A stretch of DNA of 64,000 bases from positions 124,001 through 188,000 of the forward strand of contig JAHBSL010000002.1 in assembly GCA_019639135.1 (NCBI GenBank). The letters are read 5' to 3'. Shown here piece after piece: positions 36,233 to 60,452 of this stretch; within the stretch, counting starts at the first letter, position 1, and the number at the start of each line of letters is the position of its first letter. The DNA is from Acidobacteriota bacterium. GTDB lineage: Bacteria; Acidobacteriota; Blastocatellia; Pyrinomonadales; Pyrinomonadaceae. The notes below the pieces were generated by a model that had not been told where the DNA came from, did not search any database, and was given only the letters and a program-made list of their open reading frames with translations. Made by a program: the position numbers and the translations under genes.

Positions 36233-37669
36233 ATGGCTAACGCAGAATTTGGAATGGTCGGGCTCGGGACGATGGGCCGCAACTTTTTGCTTAATGTGGC
36301 CGAGAATGGCTTCGCGGCCGTCGGCTACGACCTGAGCGTCGAGAAACGCGAGCTTCTAGAGCTTGAAGGTGCCGGCACCCCGGTGACGGCAGCTATCGAG
36401 ATAGCCTCGCTCGCAGCATCGCTCGAGAGGCCGCGACGGATAATGATGCTGGTGCCCGCCGGGCCGGTGGTCGATGCCGTGATCGGCGACCTGCTGCCTC
36501 ATCTTGAACCGGGCGACATCCTGATCGACGGAGGCAACTCGCACTTTCCCGATACAGCCCGCCGCGAAGCGTTTCTAAAGGAACATGGCATCGCCTTTCT
36601 CGGCGTCGGAGTTTCGGGCGGCGAGGAAGGTGCCCGCCGCGGCCCGAGCATAATGATCGGTGGCGACCCGGCGGTTTACGAACGCGTAAGCCCGATCTTA
36701 GAGGCGGTCTCGGCAAAGGTGAATGGTGATCCCTGCGCCGCCCACGTCGGCCGCGGCTCGGCCGGGCATTTCGTCAAGATGGTCCACAACGGCATCGAAT
36801 ACGCGATGATGCAGCTAATCGCCGAGGCCTATGACGTGCTAAAGCGTGTCAGTAGCCCGCACGTAAGTAAGGGCTCATCGCAACAAACAAACGCCGAGAT
36901 CGCCCACACCTTCGCCGAGTGGAACCGCGGCCGCCTAAATTCCTTCCTGATCGAAATAACCGCTACCGTCCTCAAGAAGACCGACCCCGAAACCGGCAAC
37001 TCGCTCGTCGATATGATACTCGACACCGCCGGCCAGAAGGGCACCGGCAAATGGACCTCGCAAGCCGCAATGGACCTCGGCATCCCGATCCCGGCTATCG
37101 ACTCGGCCGTAACAATGCGGCAGATCTCAGCAAAAAAAGCATTCCGCGAAAAACAAAGCAGCCATTTTCTCCCAATTGGCAATTGGCCGATTGACAATTG
37201 TCAATTGGAAGAGAAGGCCATTGAGTCGGCACTCCATAGTTCCTTCGCAGCGGCCTATGCACAGGGCTTCTCGCTGCTCCGGGCGGCGTCGGACGAGATG
37301 GGCTTTGAGCTTGATATGGTCGAGATCGCGAAGATCTGGCGGGGCGGTTGCATTATTCGGGCCGCGATGCTTGAGGATATTCGGGCTGCATTTTCAGAGG
37401 AACCCGGCCTGGAAAACCTGATCGCGTCGCCGCAATTTCGGGATGCCTTGGCCGCGGGCCGCGAGGATCTTGCCAGAGTAGTTGTTGCTGCCGCCTCTGC
37501 CGGCATTCCGGCGATGGCCTTTGCCACGACGCTGAACTATCTTACGGCCTTCGCCACCGAACGCCTCCCGGCCAATCTTATCCAGGCCCAGAGAGACTAC
37601 TTCGGTGCCCACACGTACCAACGCACCGACCGCGAAGGCACGTTTCACACCGACGACTGGGAAGCTTGA
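36233..37669 (+). CDS. gnd: 6-phosphogluconate dehydrogenase, decarboxylating
   Basis: A 478-aa enzyme of the oxidative pentose phosphate pathway (6-phosphogluconate to ribulose 5-phosphate). It has the GLGTMGRNFLLN dinucleotide motif, VSGGEEGARRGPSIM, the catalytic HFVKMVHNGIEYAMMQ core, KGTGKWTSQAA and KIWRGGCIIRAA. Two in-frame insertions relative to the family coincide with palindromic repeats: SSPHVSKGSSQQ (from 36852) and PIGNWPIDNCQLEE (from 37169). Neither breaks the frame or touches catalytic residues, so the enzyme is probably active. It ends one base before the convergent lpxC. Confidence 0.95.
   Translation: MANAEFGMVGLGTMGRNFLLNVAENGFAAVGYDLSVEKRELLELEGAGTPVTAAIEIASLAASLERPRRIMMLVPAGPVVDAVIGDLLPHLEPGDILIDGGNSHFPDTARREAFLKEHGIAFLGVGVSGGEEGARRGPSIMIGGDPAVYERVSPILEAVSAKVNGDPCAAHVGRGSAGHFVKMVHNGIEYAMMQLIAEAYDVLKRVSSPHVSKGSSQQTNAEIAHTFAEWNRGRLNSFLIEITATVLKKTDPETGNSLVDMILDTAGQKGTGKWTSQAAMDLGIPIPAIDSAVTMRQISAKKAFREKQSSHFLPIGNWPIDNCQLEEKAIESALHSSFAAAYAQGFSLLRAASDEMGFELDMVEIAKIWRGGCIIRAAMLEDIRAAFSEEPGLENLIASPQFRDALAAGREDLARVVVAAASAGIPAMAFATTLNYLTAFATERLPANLIQAQRDYFGAHTYQRTDREGTFHTDDWEA
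36852..36879 (+). repeat. REP-like palindrome inside gnd
   Basis: AGCCC (36854-36858) and GGGCT (36871-36875) flank a 12-nt loop. The 28-bp unit matches a copy at 60264-60291 at 24 of 28 positions. It encodes SSPHVSKGSS where typical Gnd proteins pass directly from the YDVLKR helix to TNAEIAHTF-like sequence. This is an in-frame insertion of a dispersed repeat into a coding gene. Confidence 0.7.
37169..37213 (+). repeat. AATTG-family palindromic repeat inside gnd
   Basis: The first 34 bp match the left end of the cassette at 53597-53630 at 29 of 34 positions, with the same 21-bp spacing of its two boxes. The ends CTCCCAATTG and CAATTGGAAG form an imperfect palindrome. The 45-bp unit is 15 codons with no stop and encodes PIGNWPIDNCQLEE in a variable surface region of Gnd. 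Confidence 0.75.
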
Positions 37670-39060: not shown

Positions 39061-39651
39061 ATGGCGATTCAAACTGCGGGCCAAAAGACCGCAAAGACAG
39101 TAAAGCTTAAGATCGAGAACGCATCTTCGCTTGATATGCCAAAGGGCGGCGAGGAGACCATCCGGCAGGTGCTTGACTACGTCCCGATCGAGCAGCTCCG
39201 CGGGCTTGAGCGCGTAAAGCTTGTCGATTTCATCAACGATCCGCGGCTCAAGAACGTTGATGTCCCGATGAAAGGCGATCTGCCGGGCCTTTATCACCCG
39301 AAGGTCGGCAACCAGAACGCATGGTTCGAGATCGCAATGGGCGCTCTACTCCAGCCGACCGAGGGTTTTTCCAAGCGTTGGATGGCCAAGACGTCGTTCA
39401 AGGCAAATCTCGCCGGCCTGCTCTTTTCGCTCATTGGCCAACACTATTATCTGACGCTCCGCCACTCGGTCAAGAAACAGAACCTCGAACCGCAGATCCG
39501 GCAATACACCGAGAAGAACCTTCGAGCATGGAGCGAGGAACAGAACAAGAACAGCTTCCGGGCCAAGCTCTTCAAACCCATCCGCCCGTTCGTCGAGCGT
39601 ATGGCGAAATGGCTGAACAAAAAAGCGGCGAAAGCGCAGAAGAAAGTCTAG
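39061..39651 (+). CDS. Conserved protein of unknown function, possible relict peptidase fold
   Basis: A 196-aa soluble, basic protein. The segment FSLIGQHYYLTLRHSVKK followed by an acidic-to-aromatic helix is laid out like the HExxH helix and following elements of a zincin, but the HExxH glutamate is missing. This resemblance is weak. The stop codon TAG comes from the first unit of the 9-bp repeat array that follows, so the natural C terminus may have been altered. It directly follows the DUF2442 gene. Confidence 0.5.
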   Translation: MAIQTAGQKTAKTVKLKIENASSLDMPKGGEETIRQVLDYVPIEQLRGLERVKLVDFINDPRLKNVDVPMKGDLPGLYHPKVGNQNAWFEIAMGALLQPTEGFSKRWMAKTSFKANLAGLLFSLIGQHYYLTLRHSVKKQNLEPQIRQYTEKNLRAWSEEQNKNSFRAKLFKPIRPFVERMAKWLNKKAAKAQKKV

Positions 39652-39699
39652 GAAGTCTAGGAAGTCTGGGAAGTCTGGGAAGTCTGGAAAGTTCGAAAG
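39645..39699 (+). repeat. Left boundary array: 9-bp tandem repeats (AGTCTNGGA)
   Basis: Five consecutive 9-bp units (AGTCTAGGA twice, AGTCTGGGA twice, AGTCTGGAA) and a degenerate sixth. The first unit supplies the TAG stop of the upstream gene. The same 9-mer recurs in reverse orientation at 40135-40165, so the two arrays bracket the four-helix-bundle gene. Confidence 0.8.
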
Positions 39700-39717
39700 T
39701 TTGATTCGGCGAATGAT

Positions 39718-40101
39718 ATGGGGACATTCAAGAAGTTCGAGGATATTGTCGCTTGGCAGAAGGCCCGCGAATTGAATCTTGAAATTTACCGTATTTGCGG
39801 TTTCGGGCTGTTTTCGAAAGATTTTGATCTTCGAAATCAGATCCGTCGATCATCAATTTCGATTGCTGCGAACATAGCCGAGGGGCAGGGACGGCGTACC
39901 GATAAAGATTTCGCACATTTTCTTAATATCGCCCTTGGTTCTGTTGCCGAAACGAAATCACACATATACTTGGCTTTAGACCTTGGTTACATCGACAAGA
40001 CGACCTTTGACGAACTATACATTCGGCTTGATGAGATCGGACGGATGACGTTTGGTCTCATCCAGCATTTGCGAAACACGAACAAAACGATAGAAGTTTA
40101 G
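39718..40101 (+). CDS. Four-helix-bundle protein of the S23/IVP family (first copy)
   Basis: A 127-aa protein of the family first found in intervening sequences of 23S rRNA genes: FKKFEDIVAWQKARELNLEIY, seen in part, then FDLRNQIRRSSISIAANIAEG, again partly, then FLNIALGSVAETKSHIYLA. These proteins form pentameric four-helix bundles; the Avd protein of diversity-generating retroelements is a relative. No reverse transcriptase or variable repeat is nearby. The gene lies in a 521-bp cassette bounded by inverted 9-bp arrays (39645-40165). Function unknown. Confidence 0.88.
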   Translation: MGTFKKFEDIVAWQKARELNLEIYRICGFGLFSKDFDLRNQIRRSSISIAANIAEGQGRRTDKDFAHFLNIALGSVAETKSHIYLALDLGYIDKTTFDELYIRLDEIGRMTFGLIQHLRNTNKTIEV

Positions 40102-40134
40102 GAAGCCCGAAACGGTTCAAATTTGACCATCACA

Positions 40135-40165
40135 GACTTCCAAGACCTCCTAGACTTCCAAGACT
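40135..40165 (-). repeat. Right boundary array: inverted 9-bp repeats
   Basis: On the minus strand three and a half units read AGTCTTGGA, AGTCTAGGA, GGTCTTGGA, AGTCT. This is the inverted counterpart of the array at 39645-39699. It ends 17 bp before the EVE-domain gene. Confidence 0.75.
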
Positions 40166-40182
40166 GACTGGACACTGAACTT

Positions 40183-40587
40183 ATGAACTACTGGATGGTT
40201 AAACAAGAACCCGATTCTTATTCCTGGGATGATTTTGTAAACGACGGCAAGACCGACTGGACCGGCGTGCGGAACTACCAGGCACGCAACAATCTTCGCG
40301 ATATGAAGGTCGGCGACAAGGTGCTTTTCTACCACTCGAACATCGGCAAGGAAGTGGTCGGCATTGCCAAGGTCACGAAGGCCGCTTTCCCAGATCCGAC
40401 CGCTGATGACGACAAATGGGTCGCCGTCGAACTCTCGCCGGTCAAGCCGCTCAAAAAGCCGGTCGGGCTCGGGCAGATGAAAGAGAACCTCGCTCTTCGC
40501 GACCTCAAGCTCATTCGCCAATCGCAGCTTTCCGTAATGCCCGTAACAAAAGACGAGTTCGACGAGATCCTCAGCATGGCAAGGTAA
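40183..40587 (+). CDS. EVE-domain protein
   Basis: A 134-aa protein with the EVE/PUA-like fold of the thymocyte-nuclear-protein-1 type: YWMVKQEPDSYSWDDF, WTGVRNYQARNNLRDMKVGD, YHSNIGKEVVGIAKV. The pocket residues typical of EVE proteins (WTGVRNYQARN) are intact. EVE domains bind modified bases in DNA or RNA. The gene overlaps none of its neighbours, and its 3' end is 5 nt before the ATP-grasp-like gene. Confidence 0.92.
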   Translation: MNYWMVKQEPDSYSWDDFVNDGKTDWTGVRNYQARNNLRDMKVGDKVLFYHSNIGKEVVGIAKVTKAAFPDPTADDDKWVAVELSPVKPLKKPVGLGQMKENLALRDLKLIRQSQLSVMPVTKDEFDEILSMAR

Positions 40588-53275: not shown

Positions 53276-53614
53276 ATGAAAGTACAACTCGTTAAGATCG
53301 CACACGCCCGCTCGGGCGACAAAGGCGATACGGCAAACGTCGGGCTCATCGCCCTCGAAGATAAATACTATCCGATTCTCGTCCGCGAGGTAACGGCCGA
53401 ACGCGTCAAAGCGCACTTCGGCGATATGGTAAAAGGCGAGGTCGAACGCTTCGAACTGCCAAACCTCGGCGCCCTAAATTTCCTGCTCCACGGAGCCCTC
53501 GGCGGCGGCGGAACACTCAGCCTGATGACCGACGCCCAAGGCAAAACATTCTCGACCGCATTGCTGCGAATGTATATCGATGCGGAAGATATCGATCTCC
53601 CAATTAACAATTGA
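53276..53614 (+). CDS. AtuA-like C-terminal domain protein
   Basis: A 112-aa protein with the AtuA C-domain pattern: KIAHARSGDKGDTANVGLIA and ALNFLLHGALGGGG. In the Pseudomonas acyclic terpene (citronellol/geraniol) pathway AtuA contains this domain fused to a DUF1446 domain; here the DUF1446 part is a separate gene at 60503. The last residues (PINN) and the TGA stop are provided by the repeat that bounds the next cassette, so the original C terminus may have been changed. Confidence 0.85.
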   Translation: MKVQLVKIAHARSGDKGDTANVGLIALEDKYYPILVREVTAERVKAHFGDMVKGEVERFELPNLGALNFLLHGALGGGGTLSLMTDAQGKTFSTALLRMYIDAEDIDLPINN

Positions 53615-53630
53615 CCGATTTACAATTGCC
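53597..53630 (+). repeat. Left boundary repeat of the second four-helix-bundle cassette
   Basis: Two boxes: CTCCCAATTAACAAT (53597-53611) and ATTTACAATTGCC (53618-53630). Both recur in reverse orientation at 53977-54018. The TGA stop of the AtuA domain gene lies in this repeat (53612-53614), and the ATG of the next gene follows it by one base. The same 34-bp unit occurs inside gnd (37169-37202). Confidence 0.8.
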
Positions 53631-53631
53631 A

Positions 53632-53988
53632 ATGATGAGCGAAAATCCCATTGTCTCCAAATCTTTTGCGTTTGCCCTGCGAATTGTAAAGCTTTGCCGC
53701 ATGCTCGCCGATGAGCACAAGGAATATACGCTCAGCCGCGAGTTGCTTTCGTCCGGCACGAACATCGGCCGTTATGTTAAAGCAGCCGTAAGCGGAGAGT
53801 CCCGCGAAAGTTTTGTTCAGAACATGGGAAAGGCTTTGCAGCAAGCGGACATTACCGAATACTGGCTGCAACTTATCAGCTTTGCCCAATTGCTCAATGA
53901 AAATGAATATGAATCCATTGAACGTGACCGAAAGGAACTCGCGAGGATGCTGACCAACATCGTTAAGACATCTCGGGGCAAATTGTAA
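53632..53988 (+). CDS. Four-helix-bundle protein of the S23/IVP family (second copy)
   Basis: A 118-aa protein from the ATG at 53632 (53635 also possible); the TTG at 53611 lies in the repeat. Family features: VSKSFAFALRIVKLC, LSSGTNIGRYVKAAVSGES and KALQQADITEYWLQL. It belongs to the subgroup with ESRESFVQNMGKALQQA, common as single genes in many bacteria. Its stop codon (53986-53988) lies inside the right repeat. It occupies a 422-bp cassette (53597-54018). Sequence identity to the copy at 39718 is low, so the cassettes are old or separately acquired. Confidence 0.87.
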   Translation: MMSENPIVSKSFAFALRIVKLCRMLADEHKEYTLSRELLSSGTNIGRYVKAAVSGESRESFVQNMGKALQQADITEYWLQLISFAQLLNENEYESIERDRKELARMLTNIVKTSRGKL

Positions 53989-54018
53989 ATTGTCCATTGA
54001 AGGATTGTTAATTGGAAG
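53977..54018 (-). repeat. Right boundary repeat of the second four-helix-bundle cassette
   Basis: Contains GGCAAATTGTAAAT and ATTGTTAATTGGAAG, the inverse of the two left boxes, 13 bp apart. It is copied at 54127-54168 as part of the tandem duplication. The GGAAG at its end also forms the ribosome-site region of the hydratase gene. Confidence 0.75.
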
Positions 54019-54023
54019 AAGAT

Positions 54024-54071
54024 ATGCCCGTTCTGGTTACAGAAGATCACGAATCCATACGCGTCCTGTGA
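54024..54071 (+). pseudogene. Truncated start of an enoyl-CoA hydratase gene
   Basis: Fifteen codons (MPVLVTEDHESIRVL) ending in TGA, clearly homologous to the first 15 codons of the intact hydratase at 54174 (MSVLLTEDHKYIRVL). It is followed at once by the 3' remnant of a four-helix-bundle gene. Confidence 0.8.
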
Positions 54072-54138
54072 ACGCGACCGCAAAGAGATCGCGAGGATGC
54101 TGACCAACATCGTCAAGACATCTCGGGGCAAATTGTAA
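54071..54138 (+). pseudogene. 3' remnant of a four-helix-bundle gene
   Basis: The last 22 codons of an S23/IVP-type gene (RDRKEIARMLTNIVKTSRG..., shown in part), in-frame to the TAA at 54136-54138, with third-position differences from the intact copy. It has no start of its own. Confidence 0.75.
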
Positions 54139-54173
54139 ATTGTCCATTGAAGGATTGTTAATTGGAAGAAGAT

Positions 54174-54929
54174 ATGTCCGTCCTACTTACAGAAGATCAC
54201 AAATACATACGCGTCTTGACCCTAAACCGCCCCGAGAAGCGGAATGCGCTCAATGATGAGTTGGTCGCGGAGCTTAAGCGGGCGGTGCGGGCGGCGGATG
54301 GGGAAGATTCGTTGAGTGCGGTCGTTATCCGCGGGGCGGGGAAGGATTTCTGTTCCGGGGCGGACCTTTCGGCGTTGCAGAAGATCGCCGGGGCTTCGTA
54401 TGAGGAAAATCTGGAGGATGCGAAAAGCCTGGCTGAGCTTTTCTCATTGATCCGGAATGCGCGGGTGCCGGTCATCGCGGCGGTCCACGGGCGGGCGCTT
54501 GCGGGCGGATGCGGGCTGGCGACGGGCTGCGACATCGTGCTTGCGACCGAGACCGCCCGCTTCGGTTATCCGGAGGTGAAGATCGGCTTTGTCCCGGCGA
54601 TCGTAATGGCGATACTCCGCCGCAACCTCGGCGAAAAGCTCGCCTTTGAGCTGGTCACGCAGGGCTTCGAGTTCTCCGCACCGGAGGCGAAGGCCCTCGG
54701 CCTCGTCAACCGGCTCTTCCCCGAGGAGGGCTTTGAAGCCGCCGTGCTCGACTACGCCGCCGTCTATTCAAAGATCAGCCGCACCGCCGTCGCCCTCAGC
54801 AAATCGCTGCTCTATCGAATGGACGCAATGGACTTCGCCGCCGCCCTCGCCGCCGGCTCCGAAACCAACGCCCAAGCCAGAATGACCGAAGACTGCCAAA
54901 AAGGCATCGCCCGTTTCTTGAAGAAATAG
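54174..54929 (+). CDS. Enoyl-CoA hydratase/isomerase family protein
   Basis: A 251-aa crotonase-family enzyme of usual length. The ATG at 54174 is chosen over a TTG at 54162. Oxyanion-hole segments are FCSGADLSAL and HGRALAGGCGLATGCD, with the acidic PEVKIGFVPAIV segment that carries catalytic Glu in many hydratases. It probably hydrates an unsaturated acyl-CoA, for example methylglutaconyl-CoA-type substrates, given the carboxylase and AtuA genes nearby; the exact substrate is inferred. Spacing 54930-55127 after it is AT-rich and empty. Confidence 0.9.
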   Translation: MSVLLTEDHKYIRVLTLNRPEKRNALNDELVAELKRAVRAADGEDSLSAVVIRGAGKDFCSGADLSALQKIAGASYEENLEDAKSLAELFSLIRNARVPVIAAVHGRALAGGCGLATGCDIVLATETARFGYPEVKIGFVPAIVMAILRRNLGEKLAFELVTQGFEFSAPEAKALGLVNRLFPEEGFEAAVLDYAAVYSKISRTAVALSKSLLYRMDAMDFAAALAAGSETNAQARMTEDCQKGIARFLKK

Positions 54930-55127
54930 TCCGCTTGCGGCTTACACGTACTCGCTGATTTCGAGCTTAGATTTGCTTAACTAATGGTTCAGACATTGCA
55001 AATGTATTATCCGCCTCTTTTGCGTGATGGAGCTACACCAAAAATGAATAACAACTTAACGATCGAGCTTATTGCTTTTTTGCCTGGCAATTTCAAATGG
55101 CTTTGGGCATAATTGCCCTATCTGACA

Positions 55128-56363
55128 ATGAAAGACAACGGTATTTCAAAGAAGCTGATATTTGGAGATGTTTATGCGGGTTGTGGCGGACTCTCGCTTG
55201 GGCTACTTCAGGCAGGTTTTGAGGGACGGTTCGCGGTAGAAAAGGACGCTTCTGCCTTCGAAACATACAAGAAAAACCTTTTAAGCGTTGAATCAGACTT
55301 GCAATTTAATTGGCCGTCGTGGCTTCCCCAGTCCCCATTGTCGACTTCTTCATTGATTAGTGAGTACAAAAATGGTCTTGATTCATTGGCCGGTGAAATC
55401 GATGTTCTTGCCGGTGGCCCGCCATGCCAAGGGTACTCATTTGCCGGACGACGCAATCCCGAAGACCCGCGGAATGCGCTTTTTAGAGATTATTTGGAGC
55501 TCGTGAAAATTCTCAAGCCGCGAGTGGTCCTCGTGGAAAATGTTCGTGGATTCACCGCAGACTTTACGATCAAGAATGGGGTGCTTAATTATGCGAGTGA
55601 ACTTCGGGAAAGTCTCGAAAAATCATATCGAGTTTATGAAGAACTATTAGATTTGTCGTCGTTTGGGATTCCGCAGGCTAGGCGGAGATATTTTCTTCTT
55701 GCGGTAGAATCGGGCCTCACAATGAAGAATCCATTCGAAGAGTTGAAAACCCAACTTCCATCGTTCCTTCGAGATCTCGGACTTTCGTCGCCGGTGTCGT
55801 CGAAATCCGCGATATCGGATCTAGAGCTTGGAAATAAGGGTAGCCGTGAGTTTAGTGAGAATCCGAGATTCAGAGAAATAGTCCCGTCAGTTCCGAAAAC
55901 AAGTTATCAGAAACTGATGAACACAGGTTGCAGCGAAATAGGGGACCTAAGGCTAGCGAATCATTCGGAGAACATTATCAAGCGCTTCAAATATATCATC
56001 GCTCAGAGCCATGCTGATGGTCGACTAAACACAACGATAAGCACCGAAATGCGGGAACGGCTAGGTCTTAAAAAAATGGCGCTCAGGGTGTTAGATCCCG
56101 ATCGCCCCGCGCCGACGATTACAAGTATGCCAGATGATCTTTTACATTATAGTGAGCCGAGAACATTAACGGTACGTGAAAATGCAAGGTTACAAGGATT
56201 TCCAGATTGGTTTTCTTTCGAAGGGAAATATACAACTGGCGGCCATCGGCGTCGGATTGAGGTCCCTCGTTTCACTCAAGTAGCGAATGCTGTTCCACCT
56301 CTTGTCGCAAGGGCATTTGGCGAAATGATCATTCGTCTATTTCGGGATGTTCGTCAAGAATAG
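55128..56363 (+). CDS. DNA (cytosine-5-) methyltransferase
   Basis: A 411-aa C5 methyltransferase. Motif I DVYAGCGGLSLGL, motif IV GGPPCQGYSFAGRR with catalytic Cys 100, motif VI VLVENVRGF, motif VIII FGIPQARRRYFLLAV and motif X near TQVANAVPPLVARAFG are all present, so it should be active. It transfers methyl from SAM to cytosine in an unknown target site. The ATG at 55128 is preferred to a TTG at 55113. No restriction endonuclease gene is adjacent. Codon usage is AT-richer than surroundings, and it overlaps the convergent receiver gene by 35 bp. Confidence 0.93.
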   Translation: MKDNGISKKLIFGDVYAGCGGLSLGLLQAGFEGRFAVEKDASAFETYKKNLLSVESDLQFNWPSWLPQSPLSTSSLISEYKNGLDSLAGEIDVLAGGPPCQGYSFAGRRNPEDPRNALFRDYLELVKILKPRVVLVENVRGFTADFTIKNGVLNYASELRESLEKSYRVYEELLDLSSFGIPQARRRYFLLAVESGLTMKNPFEELKTQLPSFLRDLGLSSPVSSKSAISDLELGNKGSREFSENPRFREIVPSVPKTSYQKLMNTGCSEIGDLRLANHSENIIKRFKYIIAQSHADGRLNTTISTEMRERLGLKKMALRVLDPDRPAPTITSMPDDLLHYSEPRTLTVRENARLQGFPDWFSFEGKYTTGGHRRRIEVPRFTQVANAVPPLVARAFGEMIIRLFRDVRQE

Positions 56364-57297
56364 TCTTGAGCCTTTCTTGTCGTATAACCCCTAACATTTC
56401 TCTGAACTCCGTGCGTATCGCAAGTATTTTCCGGCGAAGCGTCCGGACCTCATCTAGACTTATGCTCTTTCCGCCAGTAGTAGAGATCTCTTTGGGTTTG
56501 CCATCAGCAATGAAAATGATGTGTCCGAGTTCGTTTCTAACGGGTACGACCGTACTCATATATTCAATTACTGATGGTCGGGTTGCCTTATGGCGCTCAA
56601 ATTCACTTCTTTTTAGTAGCCGAGATAATATTCTGAGCCGATCATTTGCCGTAAAAACATCATGCGCTGCAAACAAAGCCGACATGGCGGATTCCTCTCT
56701 TAATCCGTCGAACTTTTTAATTAATTCATTTGTTCGCTCTGAGATGCGTTCAAGGGATTGGATCAACAATTCTTGCTGACCAGTCTCATCCAAGAGTTGA
56801 TGCATCTCAACAAGGCACTCATTCACCATGTTATCGATGTCACTTGTTGCACCCATGACAATTCCGCGAGCATGGTCTATATCCAAGACCTTCTTTACAA
56901 GCGACTCAAATACTCCTAGAACTTCTTCGACTAGCCCGTCGCGGGCCGTGCAATAAACGCCCTCAAGTCGTGCTTCATAGGCTATACGTCGCAGGTCATT
57001 CGCAGGTTTTAAGGCTGAATAAAATACAACGTCCTTGTATTGAATCTTTTCTCGAATCACAGCGATTGCATCTTGTCCCGTGCTTTCGGCTCCGAGGTCC
57101 CAGTCAACTAAGATCAAATCGATTTCATCGTTGAAGACACTGTCACTAATCTGTTCGGCCAACTTATCCGGAGATTCACATAGTGTCGGGTTGAAAAGGA
57201 AGCCCTCGGCTTCCATTCGAATCTTAATAGCTTCGATTTGAGCGTTAACTCGACCTGGCTGGTCGTCGACCCAAAGGACATTAAAATCTATTCTCAT
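56329..57297 (-). CDS. Receiver-domain protein with uncharacterised C-terminal domain
   Basis: A 322-aa protein. Residues 1-125 are a receiver-like domain: Asp 11 and Asp 12 in LWVDDQ, Asp 65 in LILVDWDLG, Ser 94 in VVFYSA. The conserved Lys is replaced by Arg 119 (TARDG), which may weaken phosphotransfer. Residues about 130-322 are helical with no recognised DNA-binding motif. It lies 13 bp downstream of the double-GHKL gene on the same strand, so it is its likely partner. Confidence 0.8.
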   Translation of the reverse strand: MRIDFNVLWVDDQPGRVNAQIEAIKIRMEAEGFLFNPTLCESPDKLAEQISDSVFNDEIDLILVDWDLGAESTGQDAIAVIREKIQYKDVVFYSALKPANDLRRIAYEARLEGVYCTARDGLVEEVLGVFESLVKKVLDIDHARGIVMGATSDIDNMVNECLVEMHQLLDETGQQELLIQSLERISERTNELIKKFDGLREESAMSALFAAHDVFTANDRLRILSRLLKRSEFERHKATRPSVIEYMSTVVPVRNELGHIIFIADGKPKEISTTGGKSISLDEVRTLRRKILAIRTEFREMLGVIRQERLKTILDEHPEIDE

Positions 57298-57310
57298 AAT
57301 TCGATGCGAG

Positions 57311-59656
57311 CTATTTTGTTAATTTAATAACGAAACATGTGTTGCTATCCGAAGAATCTTCGAGTTCGATACTTCCGCCGATTTCCCCAAGGACCTGACG
57401 AACATGATAAAGGCCAAGTCCCGATCCTTGCGTTGTCGTATATCCCATCTCGAAAATCCGAGATTTGTTTGTTCCTGATGGGAATCCCCGACCGTTGTCA
57501 CAGACACGCATGATTAGACCCTTCTTGCCTAAGGAAAAAATCTCAAAACTAATCTTAGAAGCCCGAGCCTTTCTGGCATTGCTAATCAAATTGTCAACAA
57601 TAATCGACGCATCTATAGGATTAAACCTGAACTTCATGCCGGGGTGTTCGTTTGTGACTTGAATCCGCAATCTAGCACTTCCGGTTGTACGGGCAATTTG
57701 TTCGATATAATCGGCCAAAAATGCTGCAATATCGGTCTCAATCTTCTCAGAATCTAATGTAAAATTTGCCCGAGCCGCAAATCTTGTAACCGCCAAAATC
57801 TTTTGGTTCAGAAAAGCCATTTGCTCAATAGTCTTTAGTATTTCTTCCCTCGCAATCGACTTCTGACCAGACGTCGCTGTGAGAAGGTTTTCAATTTGCT
57901 GTCCGACATCTACCGCATAAATCGTAACCTGATGATGGAGATTCAGAATTGTTGCTGTGTCGACGCTAACCACAGATTCAAGAAAGTGCGACCGTCGACG
58001 TTCGACTTCGGCTTCAGCCTCCGCTGTTTCGGCCCTTTCTGTTGCCGCTTCGGCGGCTTCTCGTTCGCGATCCGCTACTTCACGTGCTTCGGCTTCCGAT
58101 CGCTTGAGTTCGTCGAATCTCTTCTCTGCAATTTCGAGCTGTTTGAGTAATTTCTTATCTTTTGTCTTTTCACCAATTGCCCTTAAATTTGTTAACGATG
58201 ATTCAAACTCGCTCGATCGTTCATTCAAGAGATTAATCAGCTGCCTACTATAATCGACGAGTTCAACTTCGTCGCTATCTACTAAAGCAGCAACGGCAGC
58301 AGTGACCCTTGCCCGACCTGGGTCGGTCTTCAGGCGCGAAAGATCTTCTGTCATAGCCTCGGCTTTATCCGCCCAAGACACCGGAACCACATATTTCTCT
58401 AGTCGCTTGAGGCAATGTTCCATTACAGCCTTACGTAGCTCTCCAACTGCAGGCGTTGAAATAAGACCCTGGTTACGACTCGATGCCTCCTGAAAGTCCT
58501 CCTCCGCTCCGAAAACGTCCACGCGGCCGATTACTTCGCGAGTTCCGAGAAATCTTGAGTAACCTTGTTGTTTTCGTCGGTCGAAACCAAACCAGTCATT
58601 GCCGTCCTCGCCTATTGGATAAACTCGAAACCCATTTCTGAATAAAAACACAGAACCAAACTGTACCGATGGTAGTCCTACTCGACGGGCGAATGTAAGT
58701 TTCGCAGATTGATTCAAATAATAAATTTCACACCTGAAATCGGAGTCCTTAAGGTGGGTATAAATGTTCGGCTCACGGATCTTATAGATGAGTTCGCCTC
58801 GATCAACAAGAATCGTTTGTAGCTGTTCACCCTCAATTTTGACATGGATGAAGGTCGTTTTTTCCTGAAGTGCTGAAAAGATGAAGTTTCCTACGCGGCC
58901 ATTTACGATATCCCTTGGCAGGACAACATCGCCCTTTTGTTTAGCCTTCTCTGTCAGGTCAGCATCAGTGGTAACTTCTTGAGGTGCGATGATAGTAATA
59001 CCAAACCGGTCTGTTTCGTCACCAAAAGGATTTATCAGCTTGGCCAGTGATGCTTTGAGTGCAAGTATACGAGGTCGTGTCCAGGCCCTTCGTAGTTTCC
59101 TTACCTCAATTACCGTTCCTGATCCTAATTCTGACGAAAAGTCATGCAGTTCGCCGGGAAGCTCGAATCTATCTTCTTGGTCGTAGGTTACCGGAATTGT
59201 CTCGAAGTGTTCTTTATCATCCTTCTCGAATCTCAGCCAGTCGATGATGAGCTTGTGTACCACTCCTGACTTCGACGCGCGGGTTTGCAAGACTATTTCG
59301 CCGCCGAGACGATCGGATGAAAATCTCCCGATGCCGTAACTTCCCGCATAATGCCGGCGTTCCGCAACAACGTCACGGAAATCTGCCGGATGGTTCGGCT
59401 CACGCTTTGCCGAATAAGCGACGAATAACCATTTGTCCGTAATCTCTGTCCGTGACATTCCTGACCCGTTGTCAGCAATAATTACACGATTAGAATCGAA
59501 GAAGAGATAAACGGAATCCGCGCCCGCATCAAATGAGTTTTTTACGAGCTCAAAGACTGCCACCTCATCGTCGGTAATGAGATTACGGCCCAATACTGTC
59601 TTTAGGCCAGTGCTTACATCAAAATGTAGAGATTCGTTTTGGATCTTCTTGGGCAT
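57311..59656 (-). CDS. Double-GHKL ATPase: Hsp90/MutL-type N domain plus histidine-kinase-type C domain
   Basis: A 781-aa protein; the ATG at 59656 (MPKKIQNES) is preferred to an upstream start. N domain: N box EVAVFELVKNSFDAG (Glu 36, Asn 40), G1 ADNGSGMS, G2 GSYGIGRFSSDRLG, typical of Hsp90/MutL/MORC. A coiled coil (about 500-585) follows, then a segment with LHHQVT as possible His-phosphoacceptor. The C-terminal HATPase has VDNLISNARKA, CDNGRGFP and GSGLGLYHVRQVL. GHKL ATPases of the MutL/MORC type have been noted in restriction-modification operons. The combination with a second kinase-type ATPase is unusual. No membrane helix, so it is cytoplasmic. Confidence 0.85.
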   Translation of the reverse strand: MPKKIQNESLHFDVSTGLKTVLGRNLITDDEVAVFELVKNSFDAGADSVYLFFDSNRVIIADNGSGMSRTEITDKWLFVAYSAKREPNHPADFRDVVAERRHYAGSYGIGRFSSDRLGGEIVLQTRASKSGVVHKLIIDWLRFEKDDKEHFETIPVTYDQEDRFELPGELHDFSSELGSGTVIEVRKLRRAWTRPRILALKASLAKLINPFGDETDRFGITIIAPQEVTTDADLTEKAKQKGDVVLPRDIVNGRVGNFIFSALQEKTTFIHVKIEGEQLQTILVDRGELIYKIREPNIYTHLKDSDFRCEIYYLNQSAKLTFARRVGLPSVQFGSVFLFRNGFRVYPIGEDGNDWFGFDRRKQQGYSRFLGTREVIGRVDVFGAEEDFQEASSRNQGLISTPAVGELRKAVMEHCLKRLEKYVVPVSWADKAEAMTEDLSRLKTDPGRARVTAAVAALVDSDEVELVDYSRQLINLLNERSSEFESSLTNLRAIGEKTKDKKLLKQLEIAEKRFDELKRSEAEAREVADREREAAEAATERAETAEAEAEVERRRSHFLESVVSVDTATILNLHHQVTIYAVDVGQQIENLLTATSGQKSIAREEILKTIEQMAFLNQKILAVTRFAARANFTLDSEKIETDIAAFLADYIEQIARTTGSARLRIQVTNEHPGMKFRFNPIDASIIVDNLISNARKARASKISFEIFSLGKKGLIMRVCDNGRGFPSGTNKSRIFEMGYTTTQGSGLGLYHVRQVLGEIGGSIELEDSSDSNTCFVIKLTK

Positions 59657-60137
59657 TGTGGATAAGTGCTCAGTCCTCAAAAACAGAGCGAACAGCAAAG
59701 CAGGTAAGGAGGAAAATTTATTCAGCCGGGATTTCGACCGATCGTTAAACCATACACAGATTTCAAACTACTTGCGGATATCCTTAAACGCCAAAATGGC
59801 TGCACAGCGTGGATATTTCCACGTGAGTTTAACAGGAGTTAGAAGCTCTTTACAACAAGTTATATTTTGATTTTCCACAGTTCCAATACTTTGACGTAGG
59901 GATTGCACCTATGATACAGTCATGCGTGTCTAGGACAGCCGGGCCGCGGGTTTGCGGCGGGCGGTTGAGGAAAAAATGGTGATGATGGGAATGGATCGGA
60001 AACTGGTGATGGCGGCGGAGCGTAGGGAACGATCGGCTCCTGCGTTTAGCCGTTCGTTTTCTTTTTGGGCGGGGCTGTTCCAATCGGCCGACGGAAAACG
60101 TGTAAACCTATTTCAGGACAAAGCTCCACGGCCTTGT

Positions 60138-60308: not shown

Positions 60309-60343
60309 GGAATCTGGAATCTGGAATTTGGAATCTGGAATGA
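60309..60343 (+). repeat. Five 7-bp tandem repeats (GGAATCT)
   Basis: Units GGAATCT, GGAATCT, GGAATTT, GGAATCT, GGAATGA. Period 7 unlike the flanking 9-bp arrays. Confidence 0.75.
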
Positions 60344-60380
60344 AATCCCGTCGGCTATGGCCGGGACTCAAAACTCCGGA

Positions 60381-60452
60381 GCGTTTCAGGCGTTTCAACT
60401 GTTTCAGGCGTTTCAGCCGTTACAAGCGTTTCATCTGTTTCAACCGTTTCAG
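60381..60452 (+). repeat. Eight 9-bp tandem repeats (GCGTTTCAG)
   Basis: Units GCGTTTCAG, GCGTTTCAA, CTGTTTCAG, GCGTTTCAG, CCGTTACAA, GCGTTTCAT, CTGTTTCAA, CCGTTTCAG. It ends 50 bp before the stop of the AtuA-family gene. Confidence 0.8.

Follow-up and report, generated by a model that had tools for sequence, protein, structure and literature searches.

The question raised by this locus is why a small gene framed by inverted repeats lies between a gene for an AtuA ferredoxin-like protein and one for an enoyl-CoA hydratase/isomerase, all three read in the same direction. A sequence-only reading of the window, meaning the whole stretch of 64,000 nucleotides that was analysed, had described an S23/IVP four-helix-bundle gene in a cassette that supplies its neighbours' stop codon and ribosome site. 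The features of the locus are the following.

53276..53614, + strand: AtuA ferredoxin-like gene, the upstream neighbour (PF23544, E 2e-30; ORF list)
53596..53633, + strand: left inverted arm, a degenerate array of about 7 nt (CAATTAA CAATTGA C.. ATTTA CAATTGC CAAT)
53632..53988, + strand: S23/four-helix-bundle (IVP) gene (PF05635, TIGR02436)
53902..54051, + strand: duplication unit 1, made up of the S23 3' end, the right arm and a hydratase start
53982..54019, + strand: right inverted arm, copy 1, containing GGAAG at 54014-54018
54024..54071, + strand: fossil hydratase start, 15 codons followed by TGA (stop 54069-54071)
54052..54201, + strand: duplication unit 2, 88% identical to unit 1
54132..54169, + strand: right inverted arm, copy 2, with GGAAG at 54164-54168 serving the real hydratase start
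54174..54929, + strand: enoyl-CoA hydratase/isomerase gene, the downstream neighbour (PF00378, E 1e-50)

The proposed family identity was borne out over the full length of the protein encoded at 53632-53988, which matched PF05635 (E 1e-13, 51.9 bits against a cut-off of 33.8) and TIGR02436 (E 5e-16, 58.8 bits against a cut-off of 24), the nearest solved structure being PDB 2rld (E 8e-25). The gene starts at ATG 53632, with TTG 53611 as an alternative. Comparison with the orthologue in the relative G019 gave a dN/dS of 0.04, within a range of 0.03-0.07 at this locus that indicates purifying selection; the orthologue in G011 is broken.

The boxes noticed to the left of the gene, CTCCCAATTAACAAT at 53597-53611 and ATTTACAATTGCC at 53618-53630, were found again to its right as inverted, imperfect copies in nested order. 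They belong to 38-nt arms (53596-53633 and 53982-54019) that are 74% complementary and within which the core ATTTACAATT pairs at 10/10 positions. An ungapped pairing score of 13.5 was matched in 1/5000 shuffles of both flanks and a gapped score of 20.5 in 0/400 shuffles, and the left arm of the target paired best with its own right arm when those of 105 S23 loci were compared. The predicted RNA fold (-135.3 kcal/mol, z -3.6) has the arm pair as its outermost stem. The left arm is conserved in the orthologues of G019, G011, G022 and G013 and holds, besides the last codons of AtuA, the stop (53612-53614) that had been proposed to lie there.

For the right arm the earlier description was correct in part. 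The S23 stop (53986-53988) and GGAAG do lie within it. This GGAAG does not stand beside the real hydratase start, since copy 1 of the arm is inside a 150-bp tandem duplication and the adjoining ATG 54024 is a fossil; the true hydratase start is 54174, 3' of arm copy 2. A shorter version of the duplication is carried by G019. An Rfam scan of 53300-54300 returned zero matches, which ruled out a known RNA family as the identity of the arms.

In order to evaluate whether the arrangement is peculiar to this locus, S23 loci were collected from relatives, 55/60 of which also had PF05635 matches, and from other phyla. Arms were counted as matched when the left flank compared with the reverse-complemented right flank scored at least 16. 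Matched inverted arms were found at 78% of 105 loci from the same class, compared with 1.8% when the flanks came from different loci and 2% when neither flank was inverted, and in 60 class loci the own right arm was the best of all 105. For the 80 loci from many phyla the figure was 68%, with 0.8% for mismatched pairs, and for a further set of 40 loci it was 75%, with 4.0% for mismatched pairs; many loci come from metagenome assemblies and these counts are not of independent events. The 80-locus set, obtained by a scan of named genomes, spans Spirochaetota, Planctomycetota, Chloroflexota, Verrucomicrobiota, Bacteroidota, Pseudomonadota, Nitrospirota, candidate phyla and others. The same test was passed by 0.03% of random windows taken from the window genome and by 0.29% of those from the other genomes. 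The comparisons with mismatched pairs and with random windows, like the shuffles, thus ruled out chance or AT-richness as the source of the arms. Paired arms beside other S23 genes, anticipated by the sequence-only reading, are accordingly the rule in these sets, which were drawn mostly from the best PF05635 matches so that divergent S23 genes are under-sampled. Some S23 loci have no arms, including several weak PF05635 matches in the window genome, and in G003, G017 and G021 one arm was lost while the gene was retained; the arms are therefore not always needed.

Across loci the arms are degenerate tandem arrays in which autocorrelation is strongest at 7/14, followed by 9/18 and 8/16. Every locus has its own word within these 7-, 8- or 9-nt arrays, and a fixed transposon-end sequence was ruled out on this account. 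Slotting between co-directional genes also proved general: both neighbours run in the S23 direction at 57/64 class loci and 27/29 others, that is 84 of the 93 scorable loci, while one S23 gene is antisense to both. Orientation was scored by the longest open frames rather than by gene calls, and the target locus itself was miscalled in this count owing to a long minus-strand ORF upstream of AtuA. The packing is tight. The upstream ORF ends within the left arm at 76 of 138 loci, so that supply of the upstream neighbour's stop extends well beyond the target, and the downstream gene starts -10 to 30 nt from the right arm at 98 of 124 loci. Mismatches between arms were more often G.U than A.C (221 vs 159, p 0.002; 73 vs 41 counted per locus); RNA pairing predicts such an excess, but C-to-T deamination of the coding strand would produce it too, which makes it weak evidence for RNA pairing and no proof.

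The word of the arms was found to follow the protein that they enclose. At non-syntenic loci, with synteny judged by translated flanks, word similarity was correlated with S23 protein similarity (Mantel r 0.25, 138 loci, 0/2000 permutations), and the correlation persisted when the set from other phyla was taken by itself (r 0.14, p 0.0005). The period was shared with the closest protein from a non-syntenic locus in 102 of 131 cases, the maximum reached by shuffling being 89. On the S23 tree the period changes 12 times against a shuffled mean of 29.6, a value as low in 0/200 shuffles with near-copies included. The 9-nt arms, with one exception, cluster in a single part of the tree; the arms of the Flavobacteriaceae entries are 8-nt arrays.

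The window holds two such cassettes, at 53596-54019 and 39641-40165, the second being composed as follows.

39641..39692, + strand: left arm (AAGTCTAGG, 9-nt array), within which the upstream ORF 39061-39651 stops
39718..40101, + strand: second S23 gene (PF05635, E 3e-36)
40134..40165, + strand: right arm, the next gene starting at 40183

In the window genome as a whole there were 17 PF05635 matches, 14 of them above the cut-off. In a 464-kb sample of this genome, gene-less array hairpins numbered about 10 and arrays located away from S23 loci 39; of the latter, 11 match arms of S23 genes in the same genome. These solo arrays matched own-genome S23 arms with a mean of 14.5, a value that none of 1000 draws from distant genomes reached (maximum 13.2), and their match to arms of other species of the same genus was no lower, which places the sharing of words at the level of the genus. 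The AGTCTAGGA family comprises the S23 gene at 39718-40101 and gene-less pairs at three other loci (L118, L121 and L126). The word of the target locus was seen again only as solo arrays or fragments: one is a solo CAATTGG array at 37173-37207 of the window, which resembles the target arms and has no S23 gene, and the others are at L003 (G000:C34, about 137800-139000, G000 being our label for the window genome), an intergenic, dense mix of heptamer and nonamer arrays (ATTCCAG, TTTGGGC, TTCACCA and GAAAC-type). At 60309-60451 of the window, GGAATCT (7 nt) and CGTTTCA-type (9 nt) arrays lie side by side between genes, and an inverted partner was not found for them. The opposite strand at 55113-59698 carries genes for a C-5 cytosine methylase and for a protein containing two HATPase domains, with one further gene next to the methylase; this is possibly a restriction-like cluster.

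Junctions lacking the gene, to be expected if the unit is mobile as had been suggested, were present among relatives. Between AtuA and the hydratase, genomes of the same genus showed three states: an S23 gene of the target type with CAATTAAC-like arms; a different S23 subtype, which shares 44-50% identity with the target S23 and has ATTACTAATTA-like arms, the left one lost in three; and, in three genomes, a gene-less hairpin of CACGAAT words. The rpsG/fusA junction, compared in 30 genomes, held an S23 cassette in 2 and a clean 2-nt junction in 3, most of the others carrying gene-less hairpins with many different words. The cassette L160 (G000:C1) lies within the str operon, between rpsG and fusA. 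At two further junctions an S23 cassette in the window genome corresponds to a gene-less hairpin or plain sequence in relatives, with flanks about 90% identical. The description as a small mobile or domesticated unit is supported by these comparisons, and the turnover suggests active movement.

The architecture, the matching of the two arms at each locus, the way in which word and period track the protein, the sense orientation, the tight packing and the turnover at junctions are demonstrated. We consider it probable that the segment represents a class of operon-embedded S23 hairpin cassettes, IVS-like or REPIN/RAYT-like and widespread among bacteria, in which S23 is likely the recognition protein. 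The S23 gene lies in the loop between two array arms and apparently relies on transcription from the host operon. In the transcript the arms may fold into a long stem that, by analogy with intervening sequences of 23S rRNA, is probably cut by RNase III, and the insert would then do the operon little harm. An oligomeric S23 ring might bind the repeat units of its own arms and so serve upkeep, regulation or movement of the element, with cassettes and their gene-less derivatives spreading or being exchanged as units. Against this reading stand the absence of a caught insertion event and of a target-site duplication among the compared junctions, the armless or one-armed S23 loci, the alternative origin of the G.U excess, and the fact that solo arrays suit the S23 arms of the same genus as well as those of their own genome. 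S23 also has no transposase-like domain in Pfam and TIGR02436 searches.

The main rival, to which we give a distinctly smaller chance, holds that the hairpin acts after transcription as a permanent part of the operon, be it as an insulator, a processing site or a stabiliser of the mRNA, and that S23 is an RNA-binding protein of the host adapted to it, the words changing by slippage and template switching without movement. Long vertical retention together with the dN/dS of 0.03-0.07 would suit such a domesticated host gene as well as they suit a cassette. One orthologous S23 that keeps its site in three species has arms of AAAATCA, AGAAGCA or AGAATTC type with left and right matched in each, which means that both arms change together; such joint drift, which also counts in favour of the cassette reading, is what a tuned pair of hairpin and protein would display. 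Hairpins are also present in about 25/30 rpsG/fusA junctions and are far rarer genome-wide. A fixed element does not, however, readily explain why G003 and G017 carry unrelated words at rpsG/fusA even though their flanks are 91-92% identical on both sides, or why G031, with AtuA/hydratase flanks 92-94% identical to those of the window genome, has the other S23 subtype (44-48% identity) and the other arm type. The occurrence of clean junctions also speaks against it.

Less probable again is that the arms act as terminal repeats at the level of DNA, recognised in double-stranded form by S23 or a trans-acting transposase, with RNA pairing incidental. Word and period follow the protein, as they do for transposases and their ends, and exchange takes place at exact junctions. 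Transposition of DNA alone does not predict the almost exclusive sense orientation of the cassettes, although selection for transcription could produce the same bias; the G.U excess, confounded as it is, also points away from DNA-level recognition, as does the lack of a known nuclease or transposase domain in S23. It is very improbable that replication slippage and quasi-palindrome correction at hairpins between genes gave rise to the arrays as a by-product, with S23 as a passenger without a role, for although heptamer arrays are known from several phyla without a mechanism (PMC4679880) and solo arrays are common in the window genome, no gene other than S23 was seen to be enclosed by matched arrays in the 464 kb sampled, and the link between period and S23 clade disfavours this origin.

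The preferred reading, of operon-embedded S23 hairpin cassettes, was compared with known systems. Intervening sequences (IVSs) of 23S rRNA exist in gene-less form, and gene-bearing and gene-less forms are therefore found both there and here. The 23S IVS of Coxiella burnetii contains an S23 ORF, a 28-bp terminal stem and GACAGAT heptamers at its 5' end and involves RNase III (PMC4990558). The target locus likewise has terminal inverted repeats that form a long stem, with an S23-family ORF in its loop. The present cassettes differ in that they are placed between genes for proteins, occur many times per genome and have locus-specific words, and cutting by RNase III is here only presumed. The target cassette lies between the AtuA and hydratase genes and not in 23S rRNA, its own assembly having no 23S match, and it is consequently IVS-like but no IVS. 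An Rfam scan of 20 S23 loci found none within a 23S gene. The 23S rRNA of G011 (L300 3535-4059) is lengthened by about 730 nt, and the ORF in it resembles, as read from its sequence, a LAGLIDADG homing endonuclease and not S23. The solved Xanthomonas S23 protein, as cited in PMC4990558, is a pentamer of four-helix bundles.

The REPIN/RAYT (TnpA-REP) system (PMC3116915, PMC8266576) is similar in that a gene lies between family-specific inverted repeats while gene-less hairpins of the same sequence occur elsewhere in the genome, as in the AGTCTAGGA family. In contrast to RAYT, S23 has no HUH tyrosine transposase domain, PF05635 and TIGR02436 being the only matches at the target, and its repeats are degenerate 7-9-nt tandem arrays around many gene copies inside operons. 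TAACTGA heptamer arrays of Beggiatoaceae, Cyanobacteria and Bacteroidetes are likewise intergenic, built of 7-nt units and near start codons; they differ in consisting of a single word in direct repeats, with inverted pairing limited to one indirect repeat and S23 unmentioned (PMC4679880). A comparison with diversity-generating retroelements (DGRs) was also made, and no reverse transcriptase was found among the target neighbours scanned with Pfam. The DGR accessory protein Avd shares the four-helix-bundle fold class with S23. In the open-licence literature we found no earlier report of S23 genes tied to inverted heptad arrays, the nearest being the note of heptamers in Coxiella.

The mirror-image arrays flanking S23 genes look like a little-noticed class of hairpin element, whose S23 genes reach up to 17 copies per genome here. 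We put forward tentatively, with rather less confidence than the cassette reading itself, that S23 is the dedicated recognition factor of mobile heptad-array hairpins across bacteria and sets their unit (7, 8 or 9 nt), that gene-less copies explain many heptamer arrays, and that the 23S IVS is the same element in rRNA. The link between S23 clade, period and word ties together the role of S23, the origin of 23S intervening sequences, a question since 1990, and the heptamer arrays reported without a mechanism; these three linked puzzles are testable with one purified S23 protein and its own arms.
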